DNA of 64,000 bases from Vandiemenella viatica (lineage: Eukaryota; Arthropoda; Insecta; Orthoptera; Morabidae), in assembly GCA_031002005.1 (NCBI GenBank), contig CM061918.1, positions 57,541,478 to 57,605,477 on the forward strand. The letters are read 5' to 3'. The notes under the pieces are model-generated. The model was not told the origin of the DNA and made no database searches. It saw only the letters and a program-made list of their open reading frames with translations. Position numbers and translations under genes: made by a program. This document shows positions 4,011 through 58,880 of this stretch, one piece after another (positions within the stretch are counted from its first letter, which is position 1; every line of letters begins with the position of its first letter).

Positions 4011-4673
4011 TCTTTTTGTCATGAGCCATTTATAGCTCTTAATACTTAATCGAAATCGAGAAATGAGGTATAATTTTGGTCAAATCATATTTTAAGAAAG
4101 AACTTTTTCTACCCTTAAAGGGTAATAATATTCCCTTTGGACACGGCATATTTTGTGAATGGAATTTTTTGGAATTCAGCCCATAAAGGACAAAAATATT
4201 AATATTATCTCTACAACTTGTTTTTTCATTACAAACCATTTATCTCTTCAATACCTAACCGAAATCGATGATGATGTAATGTTTTAAAGATTAAGGTCTC
4301 CAATTATGTAAAATCATAAATGAAGAAATATTTTTTTTGTTTTTTTTTTTTTAATTTGATGCTTATAGGGCTAAAGTAATAACTATGAAGGTTGCATGTA
4401 TGAGACAGTTCAGAGCCAAGTCCCTAGATAGTAGTATCACCTTTCATAGAGATTTCAATAAACTGTTTTTTATACAATAAGTAGCTTTTTGGATATTTTT
4501 TTTTCTGTTAGGGAAACATTTCTATTTTGCTATTGAATTTTAAATGTACCTATTACACTAAATAAATAAAAAATTGCTACAAATGAGACAGTTCTACTTT
4601 TCATTCTATTACAAGCCATGATCCTCACTATTCATCATATTTTATTCGAAAAATTTTCAAACAGGTCATCTAG
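4011..4673 (+). mobile_element. Helitron-like element B, 5'-truncated copy
   Basis: The segment opens inside a GTCAYGAGCCATTTAT repeat unit, carries one to two divergent ~167-bp units, then the unique 3' segment shared with 35790-36242 (CAAGTCCCTAGA, AATAAACTGTTTTT, AATAAGTAGCTTTT). It closes with TTATTCGAAAAATTTTC, about 12 bases, then CTAG at 4670-4673. The hairpin has decayed relative to the copy at 34.3 kb. A Helitron identity rests on the CTAG end with upstream hairpin in sister copies. Confidence 0.6.
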
Positions 4674-17400: not shown

Positions 17401-20400
17401 GCCACCATGATCTCCTAATGACCATCTAGTAATAAATTGCAATCAAACTGTACTTCTGAACAATTCAAAATATGCATGTTTCCAATTCAAATAAGCTTTG
17501 AATGATCAACATAACTTTAAATCAATATTTTAGGTTACTCAATTCTCTACGATCTGAAATGGAATAACCGTATCCAATATTTAAATTCTAAAGTCTTCTA
17601 TACATTTAGAATTTTAAAATCAGACACAAAGAAACAAACTATGAAAAGAGCATTCTTTTGTTATTTTCATTATATTCTGGGATTCATCACCAGCTGTATT
17701 AAGTACTTCTATAGATGAGAAGACAGCATTTTGAATAATAACCTAAAGAAAAATATGAGTTTCATGCAATCATTTACTATTTAGATGTATCTTATGGGTT
17801 TTTGTTTTGAAATCAGAATCTATCCACTACTGGCTTGCTAGGCCTGTCGTAGCTTCACCTACAGCTACCGTATCAGTGAAGGAAAGGAATGGACTAAAAC
17901 AAGGAAGTGCCTTATCACCACTACTCTTCATTGTAATCATGGATGAAATAATGCAGAAGGTGGCAGTGAGGATGGGAGAGGAAAACATGAAGGTGATGGC
18001 TTTTGCGGATGATCTGATGATCTGGGGAGGTGAAGAAGAGGAAGTGCAGTGGCAGTTGGATGTATGGACAGACAGTATGGAGGAATATGGCCTGAAATTT
18101 AATGTAAAGAACTGTGAGTACATGCTAACAACTAGGAAAAAGAATAGAGTAGCCCAAGGAATTGTGATGGTAGGGGAACAACTAAAGAAGGTAAACAGGT
18201 TCAAATACTTGGGGAGTGTATTAGAGGAATGTGGAGGAAATGATGTCGAGATAAATGAAAGAGGAAGACAAGCAGAGGCGTTCCTAAGGAGCATTAGAAG
18301 CCTGATATGGAATAAAGAGGTGCCACAGAGAAGCAAGAGAGTAATCTATCAAACGTACTATGTGCCTATCTTAACTTATGCTGCTGAAACGTGGACAATG
18401 AAAAAGCGGGACATCAGCAGAGTACAAGCAAGTGAAATGAAGTTTTGAAGAGGTAGAATGGGAGTCACTAAAATTGACAGAATAAAGAATGAAGTGATTA
18501 GACGCACCATGAAAGAGGAACCCCTACAGGAAAGGGTATTGAGGACCAGACTGAGATGGTATGGACATGTCAAGAGAATGGGGGCTCAGAGAATCCCGAG
18601 AAAGATCCATGAAATTAAGATGCAAGGTAAATGACCCAGAGGAAGACCAAGAGATGGATGGCTGAAAGGAGTAGAGGAGGGTGTATGGAAGAGAGGAGAG
18701 GACTGGAACAAAGTGGTGACAGAGAGGTGGTGGGATGAAAGAAGCCAATGGATAGGCTTGTGCATAATGCAGACCTGGCCAGAGGCCGGAAACTGTTGAG
18801 GATGATGATGTGATGATGATGATGATGTATCTTATGGGTGAAGAATCAGTGCTTTAAAAAAACAGCATAATAAATCATTACTATATAAGAAAAATATTGC
18901 ATATACAAGTATTAAAAAATATAATTTCTTTAAGAGATTAAGCTATTTAATGCACTCCCCCAGTATATACGTTAATGATTTATGCAACATAATAAGGGGG
19001 ACGAAAGATTATTTGCCGATGATGCTATTATTTATCATGAAATCACAACCTGACAGCGCTTTGTTACAAGCCGATATTATGAAAATAATTGCATGGTGTA
19101 AAAATTGGCAGTTGGCGTTAAACACTAAAAAGTGCCAAGTAATGCATGTAAGTAAGAAGATGATATCATTTAGCTTTTAGAATGGTATATTCCACTAAAT
19201 ACCTAGGGGTAACAATTGGTAATAATTTGTCGTGGAATGAGCATATCGAGAATGTAATTGGGACAGCAAATCGTATGCTTCGATTTTTAGGTCGTAATTT
19301 AAAACAATGCACTTTGGAAGTTAAATCGATTGCATACAAGTCACTAGTGCAGCCTCACTTAGAATATTGTTGCTCTGTATGGGGTCCCCATCAAAAGGAA
19401 TTAATGGAGGCATTAGAGATGGTACAAAGAAGAACCGCACGATTTGTGACAGGTATATATAGTTGGAGGTAAAGCGTAAGTGAGATATTGAAGGAGTTAG
19501 GTTGGGAAGGCCTGGAACACAGAAGGCGTTGCTCTCGATGGAAGCTAATTGAAAAATTAATGACTGACATATTTCAGAATGACAGCAAACAAATATTGCT
19601 ACCAGCAACATTCGTATCTCAGAATGACTGTGAAAATAAGATTAGAGAAATCAGGGCCAGAACCGATTCTTTTCTGTATTCATTTTTTCCACGAGCGATT
19701 AGGGAATGGAATAGAACGGATTTACCGGGTGAGTAAACTTAAAATCCGACAGGAGTAACTTTCGATAAAGTACTCCGGCCATCCGGTTTTCCATGGTTTT
19801 CCCAGATCACTGCACGCTAATGCTGGGATGGATCCTCACAATAGCCCATGGGCACCTCCTGCCATATCCCGTATATCCCTTCCAAAGTTAGGTGCAATGC
19901 ACTCTCCGCCAAACACGTTTAGTGAATCGTGGAGTAATAGTAATAGCGTAAAAACATTTTTTAGAATTTAAATTTTTTAGAAATTTTTGGTGTCATACCT
20001 TCAATGCTACCACTTATTCTGAGCAGATGGATATTTCAATATATATATATAATCAAAGGTGCTAGGTGGCAACAAGTGGTGGGTGATGTGGGGGATTGAT
20101 CCTGTAGAAGAGACCCCAAATATCCCCACAGCTACTAATTAGCATAAGAACCTCTTTCTTCCTATTTTTTCCTTGCACACCCCTATTACTAAGGGCTTAC
20201 TACACCTGTGGCTTCAGGGAATACTCTGATTCCTCTGACTATGAAACAAGATTTGTGGCAGCAGGCATGAGCAGTTACAGGATGGTCTAGATTTTTAGAG
20301 TAAACTGTTTGTCTGTGTAAGCATCCTCTTTCATGAAAGACTGCACAAAACTTTTAGTTTTAGCTTCTGTGGTATCACTTGCTATGGTAAAATTCATGCA

Positions 20401-23400
20401 GTTACACTTTCATTTTTCCTTTGTTTTATAGCTTAATAATAATTGCTATAATCATACTGATGATTTGTGCTTGTCCACAGGTGCATATTTCAGAAGCTGA
20501 AAAAGTGCACTTTACTGACACATTTAGAACTGGATGATACAAATGGCAGCCGTGTGTTAGACGATGAGGAAATAGGGGCTTTCACTACACTGGGCCATCT
20601 CTCAACAATCCGTTCTTTGATTGTAAAGAGTTATTGGTTATGTTCAGTTCGAGGGGTCGTGCGAGCTGTCAAGTAAGCATTTTAACTTCCTCAAAACTAT
20701 TGTTTAATAAACTCACCTTAAATTTACTTAAGCAAACATTAAAATATTTCACTTTTTGTTTATCTTCATGTTTTTGTATTTATTTGCTATAATGTGTCAT
20801 AAACAGTGATTGGTTTCTGTATGCTTATCTAAACTGAACTAATGTAGTTGATGTGTAATAGTTGCTGCAATTAAAATGTGGAAGTTCTCAGTTTTTCAGA
20901 TATTCTATTACCATTTTTTCTACATTCTGTCTTGTAGATCTGGTGGACTATCACAGCTGCAGGTGCTTGAAATATATGACTGCAAAATGGAGGATAATTT
21001 TATGGAGGCCATTTGTACAACCTGTGGTGAACTTCAAAAATTGTGTCTGAAATATTGTACAAACCTCAGTGATGATTCTCTGAGGCAATTATATCACCTC
21101 CAAAAGCTTGAAATGTATGTGGCTGGTTTACTAAATCTGATTTTATGAAAATAATATACATTATATATTATTATATATACTAAGATAAAGTAGACCCATC
21201 ACTTACAAAAATGGAAGACAAATTTACTGTGGTCACTAAAAATATTAAACAATTTGTTTGCTTAAAGCATCAGAAGTTGAAGTATATGGCTTGGTTTTCA
21301 CAAGAACCCATGGTCATCAAGGGTGCTCATGTGATTTGAACATGATGATGATTTATACTGAAATATTATTCATGTGTTTACTGTGGCCCTTCTTTATTCA
21401 TCTGTGGTCAGTGTTGGATTTACTTTCCCTGTCCTTCCTTATTTTCAATGTCACTGTCATCCAATTGATTGACTCCCTAAATAAATGACAAACCAAAACA
21501 CAGCTCTGGTCTGATGTATTCAAAACCAACAAATGCACTTTTGGTGGATGCAATGAGACCCCCAATAGACATAATACAGTAATTTATTGACTGTAAATTC
21601 TAAATTGAAACATATGGGCAGTGAACAGTAACCTTATTTACAAATTGGAATACCTAAATAAATTATGCACACATGAGTGATATTGCAGATAAATAATTTT
21701 ATATATTGTTTTACAACTGCCTGCACTAGAAAAAGTTGTATCAAAGTAAAAACACACTGTTCTTGCATTTGTTAACACTTCCAACAGTTCGATAATGAGT
21801 TTGACCACCAACAGTTATCAATTATGTGATATCACACACACTGTTCCTCACAACGAAGTGGCTGTCTTTTCCCATTTCACTGCCTACCTTCACTGTTCTG
21901 AATTATTTAATCAACCCGACACCTCGCTGAACATTACCTCACTATATCCTGTACTAATTAATTCATACTTCACGTTTTGTCAGAACCATGCATAACACAT
22001 GACTTGCCTACCGGCAATAGCGGCCACAACTCCCCGAGTCCTGCTCCAGACTGCCAAAACTTGTCACATGACGTTCCGACACTGATATACCCTGTATACT
22101 TACAACAGGACTAAAAAGTTTCAATTGCAGACACAAAATGTTTATCACTTTCTTAAAAACAAAAAGGACAGAAATCTGTGTATACCATTCAATACTATTT
22201 TGAAGGAAATTATGTTTTGATGTGTCATTTAACGATTATGCTGATGTTGACCACTGAGGAGATATCCGATACAAGAGCCTCAGTTCATGCAAATTTGTAT
22301 GGATGGTGTGAAGAGAGGCAGGGCTATAGATTGCACTTATACTCCACTGAAGCAGTAGCTAACAAGATAATGAAAGCCTAAATATGAATTATACAGCAGA
22401 AATGATGATAACTTTTGAATATGCATTGCTTGCCTTGGAAATGGCAATCCTCATACTGACAGCATCCAAATCTTCCTTACAAGTTGCCACTGAAATGTGT
22501 GCTCTATTCCAATTAAATTAAAATGATTTTAGCTTTTAAAAATAAAGATCAGAAAGACTTCTTGGTGACGAAAATCCTGCATACAACAATAAACTCATCA
22601 GTCAGTCTATACAAAAATGTCTTATTTATGTGGTAAAGACACGTATGGGAACATAAGGAAATGAGGAGGCACTTCAATTAGGAATGAGAACAGCAGGAAA
22701 TGGCAGAAAAAATAAGAAAATAAGGGATTAGCTTCAGATATTACAAACTGCTATAAAAAAGACTAAATAAATTGGTAAATAAGAATAGATTTACACATCA
22801 GCAGATAAGAATAATAATTATGATAGCATCCACCCACAGGCGTAACTATCAGAGAGCTAGGCGGTTCCGTGCACTTGGGCCCCCAAGCGCATCTCAGGTT
22901 ACCCAACCTCAGCTGAGTGGCCCCCTAAAGCTTAGGGGTCCCCATCTGGCCCAAAATATTCCCCCCCCCCCCTCACATACAAGTTTCCTTGTCCTATAAA
23001 AACTTCACGGGTTTCAAGCTACGTCAAAATTGAGCTGTCTGGTGACATTTCGGAAGCTGGCACTGGCACTGCTTCCATTGTCAAGCCCCGCTTAACTTCA
23101 CTGAAGTCTGCTGAACGGTAGTCTACTATATAGCTTGGCAATGGAAGCAGTGCAAGCTTCCAAAATGTCGCCAGATGGTTCAATTCTGACGCGGCTTGAT
23201 ACCCGAGAAGTTTTTATAGAGCTTTGCTGCCTCAAGAACGTACATAGTTATTTTTTATTATTATTTAATTTAATTGCAATGGAGCACATGATCCGGTGGC
23301 AATTTCCCTACACACCCAACTTCCCCCTATCCTTCACTCACCTACATTTGCCCTCTACAAATTTTAACTTTAAATTCTTATAACGTTTTCGGTAGGTTAT

Positions 23401-26400
23401 TCATCATTCCCCTTGGTAATTCATTCCAATCCCTGAGACCCTTACCTAAAAAAGAAAATCTTCCCACACCCTTGTGCCTGAAATTGAGTGCCAGCTTGTG
23501 GTCATGGTCAACTTTTCCCTTCCATGAACTACTTTTCATACCTACTGCAATATCTTTCCATGACTCATTGCCAGTATATGCCCTGTACACTCCCATTATC
23601 CTCCTCATCCTCCTCCTGGCTTGCAATGAATCCCATTCCAGCTCCTTTATCATATCTGTTACTGATTGCATTCTGCGATAATTTCCAGAAACAAATCTAG
23701 CAGCCCTTCTTTGAACCTTCTCGAACTCCTGTATTTGATACTCAAAATGTGGGTCCCATACTACACTACCATATTCGAGCAATGGTCTGACCAAAGTTTT
23801 GTAACCCAATTCCTTTACTTCTCTCGTGCATCCCCTCATCACTCTCTCCAACAATTGCAGGATTTTGAAACCTTTTCCTACCACCTGTCCAATGTGTCCT
23901 GTCCAGTTAACCTTGTTATCAAATGTAATACCAAGATATGTACATTTCAAGTCTTCAGCAAGCAATTCTTTCCCCACCTTATATTCATAATTGACCTTTT
24001 GTTTTTTATTTGTGTATCTAATTAGCTGACTCTTCTTTGCATTTATCTTCATCCCATGTTTACCAACCCAACTAGATATCCTGTCCAGATCACCATGAAA
24101 CTGTTTACAGTCCTCTATCATTTTAATCCTTTTATACAGCATTATCTAAGCTTCCTCAAGTTATGAATATGTCCATCCATCAAGATGATTAATGGCTACA
24201 ATATTTGTATTTATACCTTCAGCTGGAAGGGCCGCTCGCTCTGGTTGGTCAAGAGTGTTGGCTTTATACGCGGCCCGCTGCGGCCACCACTGGCGCCACT
24301 TGCTCCTTCCCGCTTGGATGTGCTGGCGGTCCTAGATGCTGTTGTGTCCACGTCTGATTGGCCGTGACCACTGGTATAATCCATGGTCTGCTGTGGCACC
24401 CGACTGGTGTCATTTGCAGGTGAGGCACACAAATGACACCTGGGACTGATGCAACTGGACAAGTCTGCGATAGAAGAACAAAGGATAGAGTTCGATAAAA
24501 CGGCAGTGCTGGACAGGCCCTCTTCCTTTTGAGACTCGGTCATAACCGAGGCATTGGAGATCCGGCTTAGAGACAACAATGTAAATAGGGATGGCGGGCT
24601 CTTTCTGAGTGAAGCCTGGAAACCTATCATTAGTGATCTCCAACAAGAGCATAGCAGACCCTCACCAGCAAATGACACCAGTTGGGCGCCGCAGCGGAAC
24701 GCAGATTAAGCCAGCGGTCATGGCCAAACAGAAATGTATACAACAGCATCTCGGACCACCAGCACATCCAAACGGGAAGGAGCAAGTGGTGCCAGTGGTG
24801 GCCGCAGCGGCCGCATATAAAGACAACGCTCTTGACCAACCAGAGCGAGCGGGCCTTTCAGCCGAAGGTATAAAGGAGGGTCGATGGGCGGCCAAGCCAG
24901 TTGAGGCAGAGACAGTCAGCTGATTACAACTACAAAATACCTGATGAAGACAGCAGAGTCAGCTGTCGAAACATCATGTTTTTAAACCACCATCCTGCTT
25001 GACATCCAACCACTGCCTGGCTACATATATAGGTTTGACCACAAATCCACTTTCCGAAAGAATAAATGGCCACAAACAGATGGTGTTCACATGGAACCTA
25101 AAGCATCCAGTTGCTAACCATGTCATCACCCATGACTCGGATAATTTCAACCCTTATTTCATGGTCCGTGGCATCAGAGTCCCCCCTTATAGCAGAAGCT
25201 CCTCTGAACTCAGAAGGTGGTAACTTGCCTGCCAGCACAAATTGGGCCCAAGTTAACCACCTGGTCTCAACTTTAGATAATACCTGGTCATTATCATAAT
25301 TGTTTTTACTTATGTTTACCCTTTTTTTTATCCTTTCTTTGCCTCCATCCCCACTATCTATATTGAACCAACACTAACATAAGGTGATGTTTACTTCATA
25401 GAGTCTTCATAGAGTTTAATTTTTTATTTTAGATTATTTTGCTCTTCCCAACAAGAGATAAATATTTATCTATGCTCAGAATCACTGTCCCTCTACTTGT
25501 CCTCTGTTTGAATTTACCCCCCCCCCCCCCCAATTTTCCTGGCCAACAGTCTTTCTGTGAGGCAGTTCTCCCACATCACCCACCTCTCATAATGTTCTCA
25601 TGTTGACAAAGGGCTCATCCCAAAAATTTCTGTAACATTTGTATTTTTGTCTTTTCTGTGTGTATGCGCCCCACATCCATCATCTATAGGTAAGTGGTGC
25701 CTCATTTCCCTATACTAATTTAATTCCATATATAAGAGCCCACACCACAGTTTCAGCCTAGGGACCTACAGATTCTAAATGCGGCCCTGCCTTTTTCCAT
25801 TGTTGGAGATTGGCAGAAAGCTTTTTGACCAAATTTGTTTTTGTTGAAGTGCCACCATATTGGACAAAGTTTAGTAAAATAAGCTCATTTAAATTTTGTG
25901 TGTGGTGTACTGGATAGCCTGACAACCATCTCCAGATGGCAAATACTAGGATTGACTCCACTTTCCACATTAAAACTACACTTGATGCAATATAACTAAC
26001 AGTTGCACAAATGTTGCTCAGTTCACAGATGAATGGCAGTAACCATAATCCACATTTATTTTTTAAGACCAAACTTGGGGGGTGTGGATTAATTTCTGGT
26101 CCTGGTCTTCTTCTACAGTAACCAATCCTGGGATTGGTCTGTGGCGTTCTTTCATTCAGCTCTACTCTCTGCCCTCCTCTTTATATCTACATATCTCCTG
26201 TAGCCAACATCTTCCATTATCTGCTGGATGTATTTTAAACATGGTCTTCCTCAATATCTCTTTCCTTCTATCTTTCCATCCATTGTATTTACAAAGCTCT
26301 CATGTCTTAAGATATATCCAGTTAATATTGTCCTCCATGTTTATATATTCTTCCGTATTTAGTTATACTCTCCTGCCTTCTGAAAAATTTCCGTTTTATT

Positions 26401-39030: not shown

Positions 39031-41728
39031 AATAAATAAAAAAAAAAAATCTATTTCTGAAGTACTCAGAAATGCGAATTTGAACCTCTTCTCTCTCTCT
39101 CTCTATCTGTGTGTGTGTGAGCATGTGTCCTAGCAATAGCTGCTTGTGAGAAAGAAATTTACACGGGGTTGTTGCAAACCTATCAGTATCAACTTTAACC
39201 GTGGTCTACCTTGCATAACTTCCGTTTGTGCTCTGCTACATTAATTTGGTTGCCACCTGGCTTAACTTAAACCCAAAGCTAGGAGAGGTTATAGATAATA
39301 AAAGTCACTGGTATATTCTGGTGGATATTCTCTGTATTCTTAAATGTTAAGAAAAGCCACAAAACTGAATTGTCATCAGACGATGTTTCCAAAGCCAAAT
39401 TTCAGTTTTGATTAACTGATCAAGCCAGACCAAACCCCATTGTTCAAAGCACAAATAACTGATGCATGGAAGCAAACAGAATTTCATCGCATGCCCTGAA
39501 AGTTAAATATTTCTGCCAAAAACTGATACTTTGATACGCCAGCACACCACGTAGAGTAAAATGCCACCTCTAAGCTATACAGTAACGCTCTAACTGAACC
39601 TGGCCGATTAGGGATGAGGAAAAATCATCACTGCTATATATAGAAATCCCTGTGAGAATGCTAAGACGTATGGGTTCCCACCAAAGTAGTCTGATAAACT
39701 GATCAGATATCATGGGCTAGGCCACATCATTTATTGGATAATTTATCTAAGCGTTCGGTTGTTATACTCCAGTCTTCTTCAGAGATATTGTTTATATTTG
39801 TGTTCTCATAGCAACCGTTGCCAAGCATCGCAGAGGAAAAGGCCGCTATCTTCGTTGATGTTGTTGGAATTCCTTAAGATTTCTGCTGTCGAGGCCACCA
39901 CTGGTCTTCTCTCCACAGCAGCCTTGTGTCTTGAAATTTTATTTTTATACCCGGTGTCAATAGCATGGCGAACAATGGCAGATTTGTCGCTGTTGTTATA
40001 TCTGTAGTGGCGGATATGTTCTTTAAGTCTCTCCAATGTATACACTGCCACAGCTGCAGGGGATTTCATAAACACCCGTAAGCTGGTGTGGGTGTAATTT
40101 GTATTTTATCCTGGATAATGACTTGCCGAGTTTGCAGTGAGCTTTGTATATGAATCGTACCTCCACCCGCTTAAACAGTTTCCCAATCCGGTCAGTGATG
40201 CCACGTATGTATGCAAACTCAGCCAGTCATTATCCAGAGTAAAAGACAAATTACACCCTCACCAGCTTACGGGTGTTTACGAAATCCCCTGCAGCTGTGG
40301 TAGTGTATACATCGGTGAGACAGGTCGCTCAGTGGCTGAGAGACTTAAAGAACATATCCGCCACTACAAACATAACCACAGTGACAAATCTGCCATTGTT
40401 TGCCATGCTATTGACACCAGGCATTAAATAAAATTTCAAGACATGAGGCTGCTGTGGAGAGAAGACCAGTGGTGGCTTCAACGTGTGAAAGAGGTGGTAG
40501 AAATCTTAAGGAATTCCAACAACATCAAAGAAGATAGCAGCCTTTTCCTCTGCGATGCTTGGCGATGGTTGCTATGTGAACATAAATATAAACAGCATCT
40601 CTGAAGAAGGCTGGAGTATAACAGCCGAGAGCTTAGATAAATTATCCAATAAACGATGCGGCATAGCCCGTAAAGCTTAATTCGTGTACAAAGACAGCCG
40701 CGGAAGACTTAAGAATGATCAGATATCAGTTTCTCAATCTTAAAGGTTGTGTAAGACTCATGGCCTTGATGACTTAAAAACATTCTTATCATTCTAAAAT
40801 TCTGACAGTAGCTAGATCTTCCAAAAAGTGTTACTTTTGATTATTATTAAAAAAATTTTTTAGGTTAAACAGTTTGGCCCTAAAAAAAAATATATATATA
40901 TATATCATTTTCTGAACTTCCCAAACCCTGTTAATAACTCTAACAATTTTGCAGTTACAAACCCGAAATAACTATCATTTAGTTTCTAATGAACTGCTAT
41001 TTCATTTGTTATCAAACAAGGCATGTTTACTATTTTCAAAAGGATGAAATAAAATTCATCAACCAAAAATAGAATTTAACTAATTTTCTAAGTTATGGAT
41101 GTTATCAATCTAAAAGTGGCTTTAAACAATTCTACCTAATAAGCAAATTTGAAGTCTCTAACTGCTTTCTTTTATTTATTACTTTTTTTGTAAACTTCAC
41201 CAAGTGAATTCTTGAGGCTGATACAACAGAAAATACTATCTTGTTCAAATGCTTTCTCAAAACTATGAAATCCTGATTTCTAGCTTGAGTTAACTTAGTA
41301 ACTTACTTTAAAAATGATATGCAATGTTATTCAATTTATCTCACAGTTCTGAGAACTAATTTTGTTATATAATTACAAAATTTTTCGGTTACCTGACATG
41401 CTGTTAAGTGATAATTCCTTTCTCTTTCTATGTTAGGTTAGATATATTAAGTGCCAAGATCTTTTCATGGTATCTTTTATATTCCTCATTCTGATAGTTT
41501 GTTTTTAGTGTCCAAACATTGTGAAGGCCTACATATTACAGTGAATAAAAAATCTGCTTTTGTGTTTTTTTCAATAGGTTACTGAAAGTGACATCCTGTG
41601 AACTGGATTCAATCATATTGGATCAACTGAAGGAGCAGATGCCAGGCCTTCAAATTGATGATTCTAAGGATATTTTTGAAGATTTGTTCAATTACGTTGA
41701 AAGAATATCGAAAATATTTGGAGAATAA
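5119..41728 (+). CDS. Leucine-rich-repeat (F-box/LRR-like) protein gene, 3' part, five exons
   Basis: The exons 5119-5429, 20481-20672, 20938-21114, 28460-28687 and 41578-41728 join into one frame of about 352 residues ending in TAA. All junctions show AG acceptors and GT donors, and the four introns are phase 2. The protein is a chain of about 12 leucine-rich repeats (for example HLRAMHITYC, LLTHLELDDT, LQVLEIYDC, LQKLCLKYCTNLSDDSLRQL, LKKLFLERWDL, LEVLSF, LRLLKVTSC). The CxxL-type repeat around CLKYCTNLSDDSL is the cysteine-containing form of FBXL and AMN1 proteins. FBXL proteins recruit substrates to SCF ubiquitin ligases, so a substrate-recognition role is inferred. No F-box is seen here; if present it is encoded left of the window. 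A further exon could hide in a large intron. Confidence 0.82.
5430..10116. other. Large intron 1, first part, unassigned
   Basis: No host exon is recognised. Noted items: a pair of CACGTG repeats at 6487-6547, a duplicated ATTATAATGATCAGCATAT block around 6803-6855, and a more GC-rich, NNTATA-poor stretch at 6900-7300 with frames that match nothing I know. A 63-residue frame at 8129-8320 (NEEGIFALQTVDRNFDRLRE) is unrecognised and not called. Confidence 0.4.
6487..6547 (+). repeat. Direct repeat carrying palindromic TCACGTGA
   Basis: Two 22-base copies at 6487-6508 and 6526-6547, 39 bases apart, differ at one position (GACGCGG versus GACGTGG). Each includes GTCACGTGAC, a canonical E-box (CACGTG). 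A regulatory role in the intron is possible but unsupported. Confidence 0.6.
10117..13153 (+). mobile_element. 3.0-kb TGTAAG...CTTACA element, copy 1 (possible solo LTR)
   Basis: Starts TGTAAGACCCAAAGCTGATA and ends AATTCTAAGGTGCTTACA. Flanks are ATAA at 10113-10116 and ATAA at 13154-13157, fitting a 4-bp target duplication. The same start and end bound 28725-30733, and the first ~550 bases of the two copies align closely. TG...CA ends, a TATA-like CTTTTATAGG near 10763 and the lack of any coding frame suggest a very long solo LTR or a non-autonomous LTR element. A DNA transposon with short TIRs is the alternative. Orientation is that of the LRR gene. Confidence 0.6.
10762..10786 (+). promoter_or_regulatory. 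TATA-like box with adjoining 20-bp palindrome
   Basis: TTTTATAG runs into a palindrome at 10767-10786 (ATAGGCTCC, TC, GGAGCCTAT). It lies ~650 bases inside the TG...CA element where an LTR promoter would be expected. The second copy has CTTATACAG at the matching place but has lost the palindrome. Confidence 0.35.
13158..13545. other. Intron sequence, unassigned
   Basis: AT-rich, with no feature seen. Confidence 0.4.
13546..15872 (+). mobile_element. Jockey-group LINE relic, pol region
   Basis: A decayed element whose frames follow each other in the right order: the end of the endonuclease/linker (DWSMLTEMSD; DDPFGKKTVEGGNQLI, 13630-13930), RT fingers to palm (14168-14707), and the thumb and C-terminus (14915-15736). 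It ends in a short ATAATAAT tract near 15865. The linker wording and the C-terminal CKCGEVQTMNHMDEC knuckle-like motif fit Jockey-superfamily pol proteins. It sits in sense orientation in intron 1. Confidence 0.85.
14168..15736 (+). pseudogene. Jockey-type reverse transcriptase, multiple stops and frameshifts
   Basis: Visible blocks are FRSIALLCLLYKIFE, QAGFCPGRSCTGQLL, VFVDLSAANDTVNHQLL (motif A, normally AxDxVxH), GNVLAPILFNIYTND (motif B) and FMYADDLALV (catalytic YADD, near 14776). Then come YLRLTLDRTLTYKKH, YSVAEYASPAWY and the C-terminal cysteine/histidine block. Stops at 14408, 14459 and 14823, plus several frame changes, make it inactive. It is older than LINE A judging by the number of lesions. 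Confidence 0.85.
15873..17783. other. Intron 1, unassigned
   Basis: No host exon, no shared repeat and no terminal repeats found. Short open frames here look like chance. Confidence 0.4.
17800..18823 (+). mobile_element. RTE-like LINE, 5'-truncated, with 16-bp target duplication
   Basis: Flanked by GATGTATCTTATGGGT at 17784-17799 and 18824-18839, an exact duplication that sets both borders. The 3' tail is a short (GAT)n run that merges with the duplication. The coding remnant (17807-18797) shows GLKQGSALSPLLF (motif B) and MAFADDLMIWGG (catalytic ADD), the FKYLGSVLEECGG block, YAAETWTMKKRD, then RLRWYGHVKRM and GRPRDGWLKGV near the C-terminus. That ending is typical of RTE/L2-type endonuclease-RTs. 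In-frame TGA codons at 18446 and near 18630 disable it. A second copy lies at 56222-56841. Confidence 0.92.
18910..19945 (+). mobile_element. LINE B (CR1/Jockey-type), 5'-truncated, with 3' UTR
   Basis: RT fragment: IYVNDLCNII, a frameshifted RLFADDAIIYHE at about 19005-19040, then DIMKIIAWCKNWQLALNTKK, STKYLGVTIGNNLSWNEH, LVQPHLEYCCSVWGPH and a C-terminus FFPRAIREWNRTDLPGE ending at 19736. The 3' UTR (19737-19930) ends in AATAGTAATAG. The same UTR, in antisense with a longer (TTA)n tail, forms the right edge of the window. Part of this UTR (CCATCC...TTTTCCATGG...GGGATGG) is shared with the SINEs at 57055 and 59740. Confidence 0.9.
19946..20480. other. End of intron 1
   Basis: AT-rich, with an (AT)n run near 20039-20050, leading to the acceptor TTGTCCACAG at 20471-20480. 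Confidence 0.5.
20481..20672 (+). CDS. LRR gene, exon 2
   Basis: 192 bases between CACAG and GTAAGC. The first base completes Arg from exon 1 and the last two start Lys, so it is a symmetric phase 2-2 exon. It encodes LKKCTLLTHLELDDT and LSTIRSLIVKSYW, two LRR-like blocks joined by an acidic loop (LDDEEIGAF). Confidence 0.85.
20938..21114 (+). CDS. LRR gene, exon 3 (cysteine-containing LRRs)
   Basis: 177 bases between CTTGTAG and GTATGT, phase 2-2, only 265 bases after exon 2. It encodes LSQLQVLEIYDCKM, CGELQKLCLKYC and NLSDDSLRQLYHLQKLEM. This is the clearest match to the FBXL/AMN1 repeat consensus. Confidence 0.88.
21115..22993. other. Intron 3, first part, unassigned
   Basis: No exon or terminal repeat is identified. 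At 22844-22980 a GC-richer patch starts CAGGCGTAACTAT and ends in a C-run; it resembles one end of a hAT-type element but has no partner end. Confidence 0.4.
22994..23221. repeat. Inverted pair of hammerhead-like terminal segments
   Basis: Arms at about 22994-23085 and 23132-23221 are diverged reverse complements around a 46-base centre. Read outward, each arm gives a GGAAGC...GCTTCC stem, (G/A)AAA, and ~40 bases later a GACGyrGCTTGAwACCCG end near TTTTTATAG. This is the same layout as the segments at 24.9, 43.4 and 58.5 kb, though the CTGATGA core has decayed (TTGACAA or TTGGCAA). Likely a non-autonomous Penelope-related insertion. Confidence 0.6.
23261..24146 (-). mobile_element. LINE A copy 3, 5'-truncated near the FADD box
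   Basis: Antisense: tail TTATTTAATTTAATTGC at 23261, the 3' UTR, then an RT fragment (23378-24142) from MLYKRIKMIEDCKQ through RVMRGCTREVKEL to LPKTL. A TAA replaces a Lys codon at the C-terminal end (about 23375-23377). It begins just after the FADD codons, close to where copy 2 is truncated. Divergence from copies 1 and 2 is modest. Confidence 0.92.
24213..24890. repeat. Long inverted repeat of promoter-region segments
   Basis: The left arm at about 24215-24345 is the reverse complement of 24740-24890. Both carry the GAGCGAGCGG...GAAGGTATAAA block. The left copy, read in antisense, stops a few bases after its TATA box, whereas the right copy continues into the hammerhead-like core. The ~390-base middle (24346-24740) has no recognised content. 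Confidence 0.75.
24869..24906 (+). promoter_or_regulatory. TATA box plus initiator-like element
   Basis: TATAAA at 24869-24874 and CCAGTTGAGG with its A at 24899, 30 bases downstream. The same spacing occurs at 58434/58464 and, within a base or two, at 43365/43397. Conserved spacing across diverged copies is the support. Confidence 0.55.
24941..24980 (+). ncRNA. Hammerhead-ribozyme-like motif
   Basis: CTGATGA at 24941-24947, one extra A, a six-pair stem II GACAGC/GCTGTC around loop AGAGTCA, GAAA at 24968-24971, and a possible stem III ACA-TCA-TGT followed by T as the cleavage-site base. Canonical hammerheads need CUGANGA, stem II and GAAA in this order. The extra A before stem II and the weak stem I are departures, so self-cleavage is unproven. 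Penelope-like elements are known to carry hammerheads. Confidence 0.5.
25001..25720 (+). mobile_element. Penelope-like element 3' part with GIY-YIG fragment
   Basis: The frame 25005-25223 shows ATYIGLTTNPLSERINGHKQ, the YIG...R...H portion of a GIY-YIG endonuclease domain of the Penelope type, which nicks DNA for target-primed insertion. The GIY half and the RT are absent. The ~500-base 3' region includes a C14 run near 25518 and AAAGGGCTCATCCCAAAAAT near 25608, then CATCATCTATAGGTAAGTGG near 25690, resembling other Penelope ends in the window. Confidence 0.7.
25721..26074. other. Intron 3, unassigned
   Basis: No feature recognised. Confidence 0.4.
26075..27545 (-). mobile_element. L2/RTE-like LINE, coding region, antisense
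   Basis: Read from 27545 to 26075 it gives IPSDFEKNVIIPLP, a QFSSRKRRG block, then DI*KAFDNVKWGKMFEIL (motif A, one stop), GVRQGCALSQLIFNAYI (motif B), ILFADDIVIVTEN (catalytic ADD near 26870), YGCETWTVGID, WCYRVMLKISWRDK, then GYILRHESF and a GRPCLKYIQQIMEDVGY-like C-terminus. It is a different family from the RTE-like copy at 17800. Stops and frame changes make it a fossil. A 26-base T run at 27179-27204 (A run in the element's sense) lies inside the coding region. Confidence 0.88.
27546..28459. other. End of intron 3
   Basis: No element recognised, except a C-run at 28215-28225. It ends with the acceptor TTTGTTTGTATAG at 28447-28459. Confidence 0.45.
28460..28687 (+). CDS. LRR gene, exon 4
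   Basis: 228 bases, phase 2-2, between GTATAG and GTATGT. It encodes GGAAMSYVSQVPKLKKLFLE, LEPSLECILDISSLEVLSF and PGKLVNLR. Two full LRRs are visible, separated by a longer Cys/Phe-rich insert (FCFTRFSCNFPFD). Confidence 0.87.
28725..30733 (+). mobile_element. TGTAAG...CTTACA element, copy 2 (2.0 kb)
   Basis: Starts TGTAAGATCCAAAGCTGACA, only 37 bases after the exon 4 donor, and ends AATTCTAAGGTGCTTACA. The first ~500 and last ~25 bases match copy 1 at 10117-13153; the middle is about 1 kb shorter and hard to align. Flanks are TTCT and TTAT, at best a degenerate 4-bp duplication. No coding frame. Same orientation as the gene and as copy 1. Confidence 0.6.
30734..31249. other. Intron 4, unassigned
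   Basis: Holds TGGCGACC in antisense near 30820 (ATGGTCGCCAGG), a string also used as a tRNA primer site by some LTR retroelements, but no LTR pair supports that reading. Confidence 0.35.
31250..31620 (-). mobile_element. Old, degenerate LINE A-related RT fragment
   Basis: The antisense frames, broken many times, parallel LINE A: QLIMYTDKK, LEYLFIVSS, TGQGTLRML, YCICQRECTKEVREKTL against the family's QLIRYTNKK, KYLGITFD, WAGHIGQVV and RVMRGCTREVKEL. The alignment spans ~120 codons with no long open frame, so it is far older than copies 1-3. Confidence 0.65.
31825..31907. mobile_element. piggyBac-type MITE, 83 bp, TTAA target sites
   Basis: Flanked by TTAA at 31821-31824 and 31908-31911. Terminal inverted repeats of 16 bp, CCCTGCAGTAGTTGCG and (reverse complement of the right end) CCCTGCACTGGTCGCG, match at 13 of 16 positions. 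CCC-starting ends inside TTAA are the signature of piggyBac insertions. Too short to encode anything. Confidence 0.75.
32040..32400 (-). mobile_element. Penelope-type terminal repeat, antisense
   Basis: Antisense to 36490-36795, which it matches over most of its length (GTAAGTGACGGGTATCTGTT, ATATTGTGCATTTGTGT, CATATGTCTCGCTTCTCACA, and CTAGGCAAAGATTATTTTG at the border near 32400). The same motifs make up the palindromic insertion at 42467-42742. It abuts, head to head, the Penelope RT that follows. Confidence 0.7.
32401..33240 (+). pseudogene. Penelope-like RT fused by deletion to GIY-YIG endonuclease
   Basis: Bases 32430-32822 encode the RT palm in fragments: FLLVSIDVTSLYTNIPH (motif A), ITLTKNYFSFNSQIYPQ, then GTAIGTCMAPSYANLFLG, the Penelope-typical motif before the thumb. 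At MEENFL (32820) it jumps in another frame to HCKTCSMHPATT, the Cys motif before the endonuclease, then TYQLTCLHCTTYYIGLTTQQ and MNGHRQTV, the GIY-YIG domain. The catalytic-DD block and RT thumb are deleted. The product could neither copy RNA nor be intact. Confidence 0.85.
33328..34336 (+). mobile_element. Helitron-like element B, copy with six ~167-bp repeats
   Basis: Tandem units of about 167 bp, each with a GTCACGAGCYATTTATCTCC start, CCGAAATCGATAAATGAGGT, TTAAGAAAG and a CCCTTAAAGGGCAAAA end. It closes with ATTCGCGATATTTTCGC, 12 bases, then CTAG (34333-34336) followed by T. A hairpin 10-12 bases before CTRR is the Helitron 3' signature. The 5' end, TATTATTTCTATAAGG near 33325, lacks an obvious TC start, so a Helentron-like or other origin is possible. 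No coding frame. Confidence 0.65.
34337..36242 (+). mobile_element. Helitron-like element B, longer copy, head-to-tail with the previous
   Basis: Begins directly after the CTAG of the preceding copy. The first six units repeat that copy's order at a ~1017-bp offset, then about four more units follow, then a unique 3' segment (35830-36180) and TTATTCGCGAAATTTTTGC ending in CTAG at 36239-36242. The unique 3' segment is shared with 4400-4673 and 60006-60185. It is a non-autonomous element with no coding frame. Confidence 0.65.
36243..36489. other. Spacer with Penelope-end-like sequence
   Basis: Contains CACTGCTTACCAAAGAAGGG, CACGAAAAAAACACC and AGAATTTTCGAGCATGACTC, reminiscent of Penelope termini in antisense, then a (TA)n run at 36408-36431. 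Confidence 0.35.
36490..36795 (+). mobile_element. Penelope-type terminal repeat, sense
   Basis: The inverted partner of 32120-32400, about 4 kb away. It carries TAGGTAAAGATTATTTTG, CGAAATATTGTGCATTTG, a (GT)n run near 36682-36698, GTTTTTACATGTTCGTCTC and GTAAGTGATGGGTATCTGTT. No coding part adjoins it on this side. Confidence 0.65.
37079..38881 (-). mobile_element. Helitron A, 1.8 kb, non-autonomous
   Basis: Read on the - strand it starts TCCTATTATAAAAACGC at 38881, preceded by A, and ends with hairpin CCGTCA-TTTT-TGACGG, then GCTAGAAG, then CTAG at 37082-37079 followed by T. TC start, hairpin plus CTRR end and insertion between A and T are the full set of Helitron hallmarks. Inside, two diverged direct repeats lie about 640 bases apart (37840-38040 and 38480-38750). 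No Rep/helicase frame. GTCACGTGACCG occurs near 38796. Confidence 0.78.
38953..39049 (+). mobile_element. 5'-truncated SINE or LINE tail with 12-bp target duplication
   Basis: TCTATTTCTGAA occurs at 38941-38952 and again at 39050-39061. Between them lies TAGGGCGCTAATGACCC, GTCGACGCGCCC, then ~50 bases of nearly pure A with TAAA interruptions. The GGCGCTRATGACC...GCGCCC ending before poly(A) is a common insect retroposon 3' end. Only the last ~45 non-A bases were inserted. Confidence 0.85.
39062..39699. other. Intron 4, unassigned
   Basis: (CT)n then (GT)n microsatellite at 39088-39118. Otherwise no feature. Confidence 0.4.
39713..40715. mobile_element. Inverted pair of truncated Penelope-like 3' ends with 13-bp target duplication
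   Basis: TGATCAGATATCA flanks the unit at 39700-39712 and 40716-40728. The left half (39713-40138) is antisense and the right half (40139-40680) sense, so the two GIY-YIG ends are head to head. Outer ends match: GATAATTTATCTAAGC and CTCCAGYCTTCTTCAGAG in one orientation, the complements in the other. Both contain the CTGAAGA...CAGCC hammerhead-like motif (40602-40630; antisense at 39762-39785, more decayed). Inverted 5'-truncated insertions are typical of Penelope. Confidence 0.88.
40137..40427 (+). CDS. GIY-YIG endonuclease fragment of a Penelope-like element
   Basis: 96 residues: CSCGSVYIGETGRSVAERL contains the YIG and the catalytic Arg helix (GRSVAERLKEH), preceded by LTGVYEIP, the GVY (GIY) strand. 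It is followed by SDKSAIVCHAIDT, the usual next block. The domain nicks target DNA for insertion. The frame ends early at a TAA near 40425; beyond it the rest of the C-terminus (RRPVVAST, EILRNSNNI) continues in another frame. The antisense sister at 39806-40075 lacks 21 bases spanning IGETGRS. Confidence 0.85.
   Translation: MSFVYESYLHPLKQFPNPVSDATYVCKLSQSLSRVKDKLHPHQLTGVYEIPCSCGSVYIGETGRSVAERLKEHIRHYKHNHSDKSAIVCHAIDTRH
40729..41577. other. End of intron 4
   Basis: AT-rich with an (AT)n tract near 40890-40905. Ends in the acceptor TGTTTTTTTCAATAG at 41563-41577. Confidence 0.5.
41578..41728 (+). CDS. LRR gene, terminal exon with stop
   Basis: 151 bases. The first base completes Arg from exon 4; then LLKVTSCELDSIILDQLKEQ, an acidic stretch DDSKDIFEDLFNYVE and TAA at 41726-41728. 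The last LRR strand (LRLLKVTSC) crosses the splice junction. The short acidic C-terminal tail caps the repeat array. Confidence 0.85.
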
Positions 41729-43286: not shown

Positions 43287-43560
43287 CTGCCCAACACTTT
43301 GGAGCGAGCCCCCACCACTTCTATCGGAGCGCCGCAGCAGGAGTGGAGGGGATGGGACGCATGGTATAAATACTGACACGGCCAGACCGGCTCAGCAGTT
43401 GCGTCCTGGACTACACGCCTCACGCCGACCAGCTGACACAACCTGAAGATGATGGCACGTTACGCCGTTGAAAATTCGTTCATCCACGACCAATTGATCT
43501 GGCCGCATGCCTGAGAGATTTTCTAGCATCATATTCGCTGGGAAAACCTACGATTACACA
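43287..43560 (+). mobile_element. Penelope-like terminal segment with TATA and hammerhead-like motif (second subfamily)
   Basis: GC-rich upstream part, TATAAA at 43365-43370, initiator-like GCAGTTGCG with A at 43397, CTGAAGA at 43443, then after ~40 bases CCAATTGATCTGGCCGCATG and CTGAGAGATTTT. The layout parallels 24869-25000 and 58434-58580, but sequence identity is low, so this is a distinct subfamily. Confidence 0.5.
43443..43475 (+). ncRNA. Hammerhead-like motif, diverged
   Basis: CTGAAGA (43443-43449), TG, stem ATGGC/GCCGT around ACGTTAC, then TGAAAA. The core order is kept, but two bases separate the core from stem II and the GAAA is offset by a T. Probably inactive. Confidence 0.35.
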
Positions 43561-44029: not shown

Positions 44030-44327
44030 AATGTACAATAGCCTTTACGAATGCAGAAAGAAAAACATTGGCCAGACTACGCATTACCACTTTTGGGAAC
44101 ATACCCAATACGTCCATCTGGGACAGAGGGAGAAAGTTCAGTGGTGCAACATTGCCTTGATTTGGTGCATAGCTTCGACCTTGACTCCATCTAGTTGCTA
44201 CATTGAACCTGAAGCTTCTGTGGAAGTATTTTCACTGCAGTGGTTGAAATTTGTCTTGTGTTCAGTCTCGTCAAGCAAGATTATGGTTACCAACTAATTG
44301 AAGCCTGGTTTCCCTTTATTCCGAAAG
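44030..44327 (+). pseudogene. Penelope-like GIY-YIG endonuclease C-terminal fragment
   Basis: Fragments in order: KKNIGQTTHYHFWEHTQYV (decayed YIGxTGRS...H), then after a frameshift QHCLDLVHSFDLDSI, FTAVVEICL and QDYGYQLIEAWFPFIPK. The last two match the habitual C-terminal wording of this subfamily (EAIEI... and RDxGYxLsxAW). The catalytic Arg position has been lost. It is a different subfamily from 40137-40427. Confidence 0.72.
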
Positions 44328-45125
44328 TACAACAATAATGTTTCAATTTGTAAACTCCTTGCTAGGTAATCTTCCATTATTCCAATTTCTGTAAGACAAG
44401 CTGTTAGCTGTGGGTTAAATAAACAACACTGTCTGTACTTTAACATTAAGAATGGCCGTTGCCATTCAGACAATGTGGTTGTCACACAATTGAAATACAC
44501 CTGAAATGTGAAAGGTATGAGCAAATTAAAACACATTACACAGTTTACAGTTCCATGAGAAATTATAATCTTCAAAAAAGTTGTTCTACAAAAGTTCGGT
44601 ACCCGATTCAAAGTTTTTTAAACAGGATATCAGTCTAACAGTTCCATTGATGATTGCAAGTTCAACACATACATGGGAGACTACCATCTTCCCCCTTATT
44701 AGGATGAAAGTGACCCTATTGCATACTAAATCTTGCTGTTAACACCTAACATGAGGCGACATGGTTCCACCAGTTACAAGTGGACTGGCTCACACAAGCT
44801 GACCTTTATGAAAACTGTCAAAAGACTCCCCATCACTCTCTATTTATCAAACCGGTTAACTTTCTACTTTGAAAATTAATATCTAAGTAAGTACCCAGCA
44901 TTTAGCATTGTGATTAACATATGTGCCTTCAGGTAGCTTTTTCTACTTGTTTTAACTTAGCTTAAGCCTCAAGGAAGCTTCTATAGAATTTATTAAAAAT
45001 TCTTTGGCGTCATCAACCTTGGAGACTATTCCAATAATGTGTCTACAATAACTCTAGAAAATTTGATTTATCTTGTCAAAGTCTTAAAAATTCTAATGAA
45101 ACCAATTTTAACCTTCTTGATTTTA
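44328..45125. other. Intergenic, unassigned
   Basis: No coding or repeat signal recognised. Confidence 0.4.
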
Positions 45126-56221: not shown

Positions 56222-56841
56222 ACGTCATCATCATCCTAACAGTTTCCAGCCTCTGGCCGGGTCTGCTTCATGCACAAGCCTCTCCATTTTCTTCTTTCAT
56301 CCCACCACCTCTCTGTCACCACTTTGTTCCAGTCCTCTCCTCTCATCCGTACACACTCCTCCACTCCTTTCAGCCATCCATCTCTTGGTCTTCCTCTGGG
56401 TCGTTTACCATGCATCTTAATTTCATGGATTTTTCTTGGGATTCCCTGAGCCTCCATTCTCTTTACATGTCCATACCATCTCAGTCTGGTCCTCTCTAAT
56501 CTTTCCTGCAGGGGTTCCTCTTTTATGGTGCGTCTAATCATTTCATTCCTTATTCTGTCCATTTTAGTAACACCCATTTGACCTCTTAAAAACTTCATTT
56601 CGCTTGCTTGTACTCTGCTGATGTCCCGCTTTTTCACTGTCCACGTTTCAGCAGCATAAGTCAAGATAGGACATAGTGTGTACGATAGATTACTATCTTG
56701 CTTCTCTGTGGCACCTCTTTATTCCATATCAGGCTTCTAATGCTCCTTATAAATGCCTTTGCTTGTCTTCCTCTTTCGCTTATCTCGCCTTCATTTCCTC
56801 CACATTCCTCTAATACACTCTCCAAGTACTTGAAACTGTTG
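56222..56841 (-). mobile_element. RTE-like LINE copy 2, 5'-truncated
   Basis: The same family as 17800-18823. In antisense from 56841: FKYLESVLEECGGNEGEI, SIRSLIWNKEVPQRSK, a frame break near 56661, then TYAAETWTVKKRDISR and RLRWYGHVKRMEAQGIPRK ending EAGNC at 56236, with a short GATGATGATG tail. This copy keeps LRGQMGV where the other has a stop. Confidence 0.9.
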
Positions 56842-57044
56842 TAACAAATTATCAAGCAAGACGCTAAACAATTTACCAGAAATGTATTATCTTGGTACTC
56901 TGGGTGGAGGCGCGTCGATTTATTAAAATCTAACGTTTCAATCATCGTGCTGTGGCTTTCATCAGACGATGTATGAAATGTTACTAATTCAACATGGATA
57001 CAAAACTGATGAAGCAAGATAATAAATATAGAGACCACGGAAGC
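56842..57044 (-). mobile_element. Hammerhead-type terminal segment, antisense
   Basis: Antisense reading: CGTCTGATGAAAGCCACAGC, ATGATTGAAACGTTAGATTT, AATAAATCGACGCGCCTCCA, CCCAGAGTACCAAGATAATA. Close in order to the antisense segment at 63452-63530 (CCGAAGAAGGCCACAAAATG, GAAACGTTGAATTT, GACGCGGTTCAACCCGG, ACCAAGATTAC). Stem II is weak here. Confidence 0.5.
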
Positions 57045-57054
57045 TTTCAGAATC

Positions 57055-58060: not shown

Positions 58061-58585
58061 ATTCGCCAAGAAACACTCCACCGCCAGCAAATCCGGGCGG
58101 GAAGGAGCAAGTGGCGCCAATGGAGGTCTTTTTTTTTCCGCTGCCTCTATGACTGTTGTTGAAGTACCACCACCTTTGTTAGTCTAACTTCTTGGTGTCA
58201 ATTGGGTGTTGTTTTGGGGACACATTTTTATTTCACTTTTAGGGGGAAAATGGCTATGGACGCCGTATGCGTCCTTATATTAAAACCCCCTACTGGGTTC
58301 GTGTTGTCAGTTGGGGATCATCGCCGTAATAAGCTGTGTTAGCAACTGGACGATTTTCCCCAACTGCCGCAGCGGTCCATCTATAAGCCAACACTCTCGA
58401 CCAACCAGAGCGAGCGGGCCTTCCAGCTGAAGGTATAAAGGAGGTCCGGTGGGCGGCCATGCCAGTCGAGGCAGAGACAGTCAGCTGAGAACAAATACAG
58501 ATACGTGATGAAAACAGCAGTGTCAGCTGTCGAAACGTCGTGTTTTTACACCACCATCCGGCTGGACACCCGAGAAGATTTTGTT
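58061..58585 (+). mobile_element. Penelope-like terminal segment with TATA and hammerhead-like motif, interrupted
   Basis: 58070-58122 and 58361-58580 align to 24745-25000 (GGGCGGGAAGGAGCAAGTGG; GACCAACCAGAGCGAGCGGG; GAAGGTATAAAGGAGG). The ~238 bases between (58123-58360) are an insertion starting with a T9 run and ending CCCCAACT, of unknown type. TATAAA at 58434, initiator-like CCAGTCGAGG with A at 58464, end motif GGCTGGACACCCGAGAAGAT near 58560. Confidence 0.62.
58505..58545 (+). ncRNA. Hammerhead-like motif
   Basis: GTGATGA (C to G at the first core base), stem ACAGC/GCTGT with loop AGTGTCA, GAAA at 58532-58535, possible stem III ACG-TCG-TGT. Stem III differs from the 24.9-kb copy at two bases while keeping a pairable G:U, but the core change argues against activity. 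Confidence 0.42.
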
Positions 58586-58880
58586 GTTAACACTCCACTA
58601 TTCGACATTCGATAACAGACATTGCTATTGGAAACATGGATCTGCACTTCCCACTCCTCTCGTGTAAATGTTTCTTATTGCAATCAACTTTTCAATTACA
58701 ATTACTGATTCAAAGTCAAGATTCAATTATATATCATCAATGAACCATTTGAGGCCAATGCTATTAACCTATTAAACTGAACCAATTCGAGTGAGGGAGA
58801 GAATTATTTTATTGGGCCTTAGTAGGATGAAAATTGGTAATAATAATCAATACACACCAGTCATAATCATATGTATTATT

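Follow-up and report, generated by a model that had tools for sequence, protein, structure and literature searches.

Hammerhead ribozymes that lack stem III and possibly act as dimers have been reviewed for Penelope-like elements (PLEs; PMC7761336, PMC6155905). In PAc, a Poseidon element of Anolis carolinensis, the hammerhead lies at the junction of the pseudo-long terminal repeat (pLTR) and the open reading frame (ORF), the ORF begins in the ribozyme and the cut falls inside the ORF; in vitro, cleavage depends on the protein of the element and insertion can proceed without cleavage, and the changes C3G and G8C each abolish activity (PMC11167929). The endonuclease-containing Penelope elements of Adineta vaga have a TATA box followed by an initiator (Inr)-like site in the pLTR, an inverted pLTR, flanking target repeats, and 5'-truncated and solo pLTR copies (PMC3846280). 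The plus-strand hammerhead of Chrysanthemum chlorotic mottle viroid (CChMVd) carries one extra A (A10) between A9 and G10.1, which moderately lowers the trans-cleaving rate, with C or G being far worse and U better (PMC3705267). Here a window of 64,000 nt from the morabid grasshopper Vandiemenella viatica (GCA_031002005.1, contig CM061918.1, positions 57,541,478 to 57,605,477) was analyzed, in which three loci are best explained, with a probability of about 0.93 and judging from sequence, as pLTRs of endonuclease-type Penelope-like retrotransposons that carry the promoter and ribozyme proposed for them in an earlier, sequence-only reading. Minimal dimer-acting PLE hammerheads were reportedly described by Cervera and de la Pena (2014) and Lunse et al. 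(2017), and by description the motifs examined here share with them the type I order, the near absence of stem III and the location in pLTRs. As both this ribozyme form and the TATA/Inr arrangement of pLTRs are already published, the present elements are a new, abundant member of a described group.

The three loci comprise the following features, in window coordinates.

24210..24425, minus strand: inverted partial pLTR on the 5' side of the copy A insertion, 86.6% identical to the reverse complement of 24660-24874.
24428..24631, plus strand: C-terminal end of a PLE ORF, past the GIY-YIG motif, with one in-frame stop; 77% match to the corresponding ORF region of genome locus L148 (E 2e-31); database relative P0010 matches over 24215-24646 (tblastn, E 7e-12).
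24660..25007, plus strand: pLTR family 1, copy A, the terminal part of an insertion truncated on its 5' side; 40 further copies were aligned with it.
24869..24874, plus strand: TATA box of copy A.
24898..24902, plus strand: initiator-like CAGTT, predicted start A24899, 30 nt from TATA.
24935..24981, plus strand: minimal type I hammerhead of copy A, with stem I 24935-24940/24976-24981, core 24941-24947, extra A 24948, six-pair stem II 24949-24954/24962-24967, GAAA 24968-24971 and positions 15.2-17 at 24972-24975; predicted cut after 24975.
24944..24982, plus strand: putative PLE ORF start, with the ATG inside CTGATGA; copy A stops after MKTAESAVETSCF.
43290..43530, plus strand: pLTR family 2 plus downstream end, from genome matches, 36 copies aligned.
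43365..43400, plus strand: TATA box 43365-43370 and initiator-like CAGTT, A at 43397.
43440..43480, plus strand: hammerhead of family 2, with core CTGAAGA 43443-43449, extra T 43450, stem II 43451-43456/43464-43469, GAAA 43470-43473, ATTC 43474-43477 (AATT palindrome) and a three-pair stem I.
44031..44335, plus strand: PLE coding relic 3' of the family-2 pLTR (tblastn P0024, E 3e-9).
58080..58586, plus strand: pLTR family 1, copy B; about 240 bp between 58126 and 58366 are non-matching DNA.
58434..58467, plus strand: TATA box 58434-58439 and initiator-like CAGTC, A at 58464.
58499..58545, plus strand: hammerhead of copy B, with stem I 58499-58504/58540-58545, core GTGATGA 58505-58511, extra A 58512, stem II 58513-58518/58526-58531 with one mismatch, GAAA 58532-58535 and CGTC 58536-58539.

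Reading of the sequence confirmed the fixed order of TATAAA (first T at 24869, 43365 and 58434), CAGTY-type initiator and hammerhead-like motif, with the initiator A lying 30 nt past the first T of the TATA box at 24899 and 58464 and 32 nt past it at 43397. The 24.9-kb copy does have the full CTGATGA (at 24941) and the perfect stem II ascribed to it; it also carries ACAT instead of ACGT, and the basal pair of its stem I is C.A. The 43.4-kb copy retains the core, GAAA and AATT, and its six stem II pairs include a closing G.U. In the 58.5-kb copy C3 is changed to G, so that this hammerhead is predicted to be inactive, and five stem II pairs remain; because the broken pair is the first, the copy looks as if it had two extra bases, and the "one or two" extra bases originally noted therefore come down to one, the family standard. 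Two parts of the ribozyme had gone unmentioned, namely stem I (AAATAC/ATGTTT at 24.9 kb, AAC/GTT at 43.4 kb and AGATAC/GTGTTT at 58.5 kb) and a short palindromic stem III, in which the bases past GAAA could pair between two molecules.

A chance resemblance of unrelated promoters had to be considered, as the bare CTGANGA..GAAAC pattern occurs twice in the window where 0.66 occurrences are expected, and 12 of 100 shuffles contained as many, i.e. within chance. Structural scans and genome-wide counts refute it. A strict scan, requiring stem I, a core with at most one mismatch, 0–2 bases before and 0–1 after stem II, GAAA and a dimer-type stem III, returned 24941 and 58505, against 0.027 sites per window in dinucleotide shuffles, none of which (0/300) had two or more. 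A relaxed scan returned 24941, 43443 and a new site, 40601, each with exactly one extra base (0.045 in shuffles; three or more sites in 0/200), and gave no match in the window with none or two extra bases. In the host genome (3.72 Gb), the core pattern CCTGANGA...GAAACGTCG was found 8,297 times versus 14 for the reversed control, and the family copies described below add to this, leaving chance a negligible probability. A minus-strand site at 58907, listed by a looser first scan of the window, was dropped as unsupported by the stricter scans.

The segments 24801-25007 and 58366-58571 share 86.5% identity over 208 aligned positions and both belong to family 1, the 43.4-kb locus representing a second family. 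The host genome holds at least 50 matches to family 1 (best 40 of 1,953 candidates scored) and at least 43 to family 2 (best 40 of 2,549 candidates scored); since candidates were scored best-first, the copy statistics lean toward well-preserved copies. Identical sequences were counted once, loci L134 and L139 are one place, and the scoring covered 39 of 41 family-1 copies, including the two in the window (2 incomplete copies left out); in family 2, 36 copies were aligned (4 partial matches left out). All 39 family-1 copies have the extra A; 34 have an intact core, 33 all six stem II pairs, 37 GAAA, 37 five or more of the six stem I pairs and 28 ACGT; core, stems, GAAA and cleavage site are present together in 25, and many of the changes are of the CpG-decay kind. 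CUGANGA, stem II, GAAA, a U-H cleavage site and stem I were thus found in the hammerhead order.

The extra base was further counted in the host genome among places with a stem II opening GNC and closing GNC and an ACGT stem III, a class that excludes family 2 with its extra T and other stem III. One base separates CTGANGA from stem II in 6,570 places and none does so in 21 (reversed controls 0), so that the extra base is the standard form of the ACGT class. Of the two options first considered, a decayed hammerhead or a variant fold, decay does not explain the extra base (39/39; 6,570 vs 21), though single copies also bear damage that came later. The base varies by family (A, C or U). It has the same position as in CChMVd, which is a single viroid ribozyme, whereas here several retrotransposon families within one genome usually carry it (PMC3705267). 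The literature searched, whose coverage was partial and did not include the two likeliest papers, contained no account of a fixed extra base for hammerheads of PLEs, and no claim of novelty is made.

As the core pattern leaves stem II free and constrains only the first pair of stem I, stem pairing provides an independent test. The first 30 places of this pattern were fetched as loci, partly overlapping, and yielded 40 motif rows in 25 distinct forms. In 18 of these forms three or more stem II pairs are contiguous, and each of the 18 has a single extra base (A in 12, C in 6). Covariation among the 25 forms was assessed against 2,000 shuffles, which ignore relatedness. In stem I, pair 2 is kept in 21 forms and pair 3 in 18 (expected 11.0 and 10.8; 0 and 2 shuffles as good), and stem II pairs 2, 4, 5 and 6, read with one extra base, are kept in 22, 21, 18 and 18 (expected 19.2, 12.0, 11.5 and 13.3; 11, 0, 1 and 2 shuffles as good). 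Genome-wide copies whose stems failed to co-vary had been anticipated as one way in which the proposal could fail; instead, several pairs of both stems covary. Judged by sequence, the motif is a type I hammerhead of minimal form, in which stems I and II covary in part and stem III is palindromic.

These data also bear on whether the hairpin is kept as code for the protein N-terminus or as a translation or packaging signal, the ribozyme being dead or incidental in these families. The stem-loop can be read in frame (MKTAESAVET, MMARYAVENS), an extra base reduces activity in a viroid (PMC3705267), and PAc insertion in vitro proceeds without the protein-dependent cleavage (PMC11167929), all of which would fit such a role. 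Against it stand the covariation at stem I pairs 2 and 3, where the 5' arm precedes the ATG, and at stem II pairs 2 and 4–6, the occurrence of stem III as three palindromes (ACGT, AGCT, AATT), and a core, partly outside the ORF, that is intact in 34/39 family-1 copies, so that we regard this explanation as unlikely.

Helix III is minimal in these motifs, as reviewed for PLE hammerheads that lack it or nearly so (PMC6155905, PMC7761336), with two positions between A15.1 and U16.1 that are palindromic in the commonest forms: ACGT in family 1 and AATT in family 2. Host-genome matches in which position 15.2 is not C number 6,210 (reversed control 62), including 2,315 with AGCT (control 3), 1,414 with AATT (control 0) and 355 with ATGT, the CpG-decay form (control 2). 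Palindromic tetramers that differ on both sides would suit a stem III built by two ribozymes, although the remaining third of the matches, discussed below, was not assigned to any of these forms.

Upstream of the ribozyme, TATAWA is present in 34 of 36 family-1 and 26 of 31 family-2 copies with sufficient upstream sequence. Among these TATA copies, the A of CAGT lies at 30 nt in 28/34 of family 1 and at 32 nt in 21/26 of family 2, and the distance from TATA to the core is 71–72 nt in 31/34 and 78 nt in 23/26, respectively. TATA box and initiator would suit a pLTR promoter. Measured from the TATA box to the Inr-like site, the spacing is 20 bp in Adineta vaga compared with 23 (family 1) and 25 (family 2) here, and the optional tail is 31 bp compared with 32 nt; the word hammerhead does not occur in the Adineta vaga paper (PMC3846280).

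In many family-1 copies, L128 among them (MKTAESAVETSCFYTTIRLDTREDFVASIRRES), the frame from the ATG in CTGATGA crosses the ribozyme and enters the tail, and in family 2 the ATG is formed by A9, the extra T and G10.1, as in L155 (MMARYAVENSFIHDQLIRPHSREIFKHQIRRENLRLH). DNA alignment of the 43-kb and 58-kb pLTRs was not significant (157/500 shuffles as good), and the link between the families comes from their ORF N-termini, which align (0/2,000 shuffles for the commonest-letter peptides; 2/2,000 as good for one literal pair). Many copies have open N-termini, and these are alike in the two families; together with the precedent of PAc, this suggests that the ORF starts inside the ribozyme. Because the apparent ORF begins there, cleavage would fall about 30 nt into it, at a predicted 32 nt in family 1 and 29 nt in family 2, counted on the window sequence, compared with 26 nt in PAc (PMC11167929).

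Protein remnants tie the pLTRs to PLEs. An ORF end beginning VITEALEIRLRDNNVNRDGG precedes the pLTR at 24.9 kb, and reverse transcriptase (RT) or GIY-YIG motifs lie 5' of the pLTR in L129, L135 and L148, the GIY-YIG motif GIYSIPCECGKVYIGQT being read in L129/L148. For a 201-aa piece from L129 the database holds 463 relatives at E up to 0.001. Among the 120 of them that were listed, PF26215 is present in nearly all, RVT_1 (PF00078) in several and GIY-YIG (PF01541) in one, P0056; the named ones belong to cockroach, termites, damselflies, beetles, moths, butterflies and echinoderms. Against Pfam RVT_1, the RT piece of L135 scores 28.2 bits (E 1.9e-6), just below the 29.6 cut-off. Using these 120 relatives and one piece of our own as tblastn queries (1e-5), PLE protein was found in 23/30 family-2 and 12/30 family-1 loci, our own piece being the top match in 3 and 9 of these, respectively; at the 43-kb locus of the window the match lies downstream of the pLTR. 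The family-1 C-terminus was found in 14/30 loci at E up to 0.01. In L184 a chain of matches runs from 1593 down to 476, followed by the pLTR at 345-124. The reverse transcriptase is thus represented by the RVT_1 match, the relatives and tblastn matches 5' of the pLTR in L184-L186, and a GIY-YIG endonuclease following it by the motif reading and the one listed relative; counting against the latter, Pfam GIY-YIG gave no match for the protein pieces, and an NCBIfam group I intron endonuclease model scored E 4e-4, far below its cut-off. Elsewhere in the window, a coding remnant of GIY-YIG type occupies 32551-33175 (P0012 matches 32551-32811 with E 4e-9; Pfam GIY-YIG reaches E 0.007, which is below its cut-off), and the window scans list no hammerhead-like site beside it.

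The anatomy of the copies is that of pLTRs, often inverted and with an optional tail and target repeats. Of the 39 family-1 ends listed, 19 continue through a 32-nt tail, CATCGATACGCCGGGAAAGTCTCCACTCACAC, into flanking DNA (one shortened, one cut by the locus end, two loci being one place), and 20 go directly into unlike sequence after GAAGATTTTGTTG. A second copy on the opposite strand, head-to-head, is present in 15/30 family-1 loci, and the window segment 24210-25007 shares this unit plan of inverted partial pLTR, ORF end and pLTR. Flanking repeats of 10–15 bp, assessed without shuffle control, are clear in 7 of 13 units inspected (L136, L138, L143, L145, L146, L147, L153), A-rich and doubtful in L134/L139 and L140, 7 bp long in L125, and not seen at L141 and L152. 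All three longer stretches fetched contained 5'-truncated copies. Between the head-to-head PLE copies of L136, positions 2071-2154 match Rfam mir-549 below the threshold (53.9 bits against a gathering value of 93, E 3.6e-9), the matching stretch probably being the palindromic junction.

The short units bear on the possibility, raised in the sequence-only reading, of a small self-processing family, here one in which a pLTR and hammerhead move alone, retrozyme-like, as self-processed circular RNA. Seven of the 13 units (two being one place) consist of just 306–512 bp of head-to-head pLTRs with little room for an ORF, and 26 of the 30 loci fetched by the general pattern are without PLE protein with the queries used. 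On the other hand, many copies have an ORF end directly 5' of the pLTR, the stable helix III found in most type I hammerheads of invertebrate retrozymes (PMC7761336) is missing here, and solo pLTRs and 5'-truncated copies are known for PLEs (PMC3846280). Animal retrozymes are non-coding tandem repeats with a canonical type I hammerhead; the loci here have adjoining PLE ORF ends and no canonical stem III. A family of this kind is therefore improbable. The lead to Penelope-like elements with hammerhead and promoter, offered in the same reading, was the right one, in view of the RT/GIY-YIG remnants beside many copies and the pLTR anatomy: as judged from sequence features, the copies read are pLTRs of protein-coding PLEs, 5'-truncated or short, and those of the window are old insertions with broken ORFs.

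Several observations weigh against the assignment to pLTRs with promoter and ribozyme. Stem I of family 2 has three pairs only; in the best single-strand fold of the 24.9-kb copy the core bases are paired and the hammerhead is not formed, and the 43.4- and 58.5-kb copies fold no better than shuffles (z-scores of -3.45, -0.24 and 0.44 for the three copies). In 7 of the 25 forms stem II lacks a run of three contiguous pairs; pairs 1 and 3 of stem II, which barely vary, show no covariation signal (597 and 442 of 2,000 shuffles as good), nor do stem I pairs 4–6 (123, 1,734 and 208), and in the wrong register, with two extra bases, pair 4 also beats the shuffles (2/2,000). Of the 6,210 matches in which position 15.2 is not C, 2,126 are neither AGCT, AATT nor ATGT. 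Within a family, spacings and motifs descend together and cannot be counted as independent evidence. No complete element was read from pLTR into RT, so that the ORF start is predicted from the features named above. Of the 30 loci fetched by the general pattern, only 4 contain recognizable PLE protein, neither the database search nor Pfam gave a match for the 87-aa piece from the window, and the family similarity of the 24.9-kb copy ends at 25007, about 15 nt short of the common end. Finally, Rfam Hammerhead_1 (RF00163) gave no match over the gathering threshold in the window or in eight family loci, an outcome that had been named in advance as evidence against a hammerhead; as L125, L128, L144 and L148, whose motifs were scored intact, also have no match, the miss says little. 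The Rfam-model family search of the host genome likewise returned none in 73 scored of 420,721 candidates and is uninformative, since few candidates were scored and 14 control genomes also gave none. In pattern scans of viral contigs, 0/123 loci (1.01 Mb) passed the structural scan, and the 3/123 that were read look phage-like.

A third PLE-like family in the window includes a fourth hammerhead-like site, situated just 3' of its coding remnant; a mirror copy of this site on the minus strand near 39.8 kb is more decayed.

39714..40669, plus strand: head-to-head unit of the third PLE-like family, with coding remnants in both arms (inverted repeats I4, I7 and I9; tblastn P0019 E 8e-32 at 40215-40574, plus strand, and P0048 E 3e-23 at 39812-40223, minus strand).
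40597..40638, plus strand: third-family hammerhead-like site, with core CTGAAGA 40601-40607, extra A 40608, stem II 40609-40613/40622-40626, GAGA 40627-40630 in place of GAAA, GCTT (AGCT palindrome) and stem I ATCT/AGAT.

Other repeats in the window include three related RT copies (RVT_1) at 88-1689, 3191-4018 and 23378-24145, 92–98% alike where the repeat search compares them, and a second RT lineage in two inverted copies at 17759-18797 and 56236-57200, 91–92% alike. AT-rich repeats of about 167 bp form a loose array at 33321-35800 and a second, shorter array 23 kb off at 58875-59682. A palindrome at 1781-1944 has a weak Rfam mir-587 match (28.7 bits, gathering 80) and looks more like a short inverted-repeat element than a miRNA.

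Taken as pLTRs of endonuclease-type PLEs, the loci suggest the following mechanism. RNA polymerase II would start at CAGTY, about 30 nt 3' of TATA, and a type I hammerhead would fold in the RNA about 40 nt downstream of the start. As stem III consists of only two palindromic positions beside A15.1/U16.1, two ribozymes, from tandem copies or from two molecules, would have to pair to cut. Translation would start at the ATG in the ribozyme, formed by A6-U7-G8 in family 1 and A9-extra U-G10.1 in family 2, and with the cut about 30 nt inside the ORF, message and cleaved RNA would be mutually exclusive. The extra base, positioned as in CChMVd, may keep cleavage slow, and slow dimer- or protein-dependent cleavage would leave the message usable; the ribozyme may trim tandem transcripts or act after binding of the element protein, as PAc does in vitro. 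Beyond this, we raise tentatively, as a possibility with the odds against it, a distinct hammerhead form in which the fixed extra nucleotide would be a brake until ribozymes pair or protein binds, combined with a dimer-only stem III and a start codon in the core, the message then being turned off; the insert would be a general PLE trait, convergent on the viroid A10.

The role of the PLE hammerhead was called unknown in a 2020 review (PMC7761336), and a very abundant form of it here goes undetected by Rfam models. Thousands of copies from several families are available in this genome, and they differ naturally in the extra base, in the palindrome of stem III and in the ORF overlap. That variation, including the 21 insert-free places, makes the idea of a brake and of a switch between message and cleavage directly testable on natural sequences.

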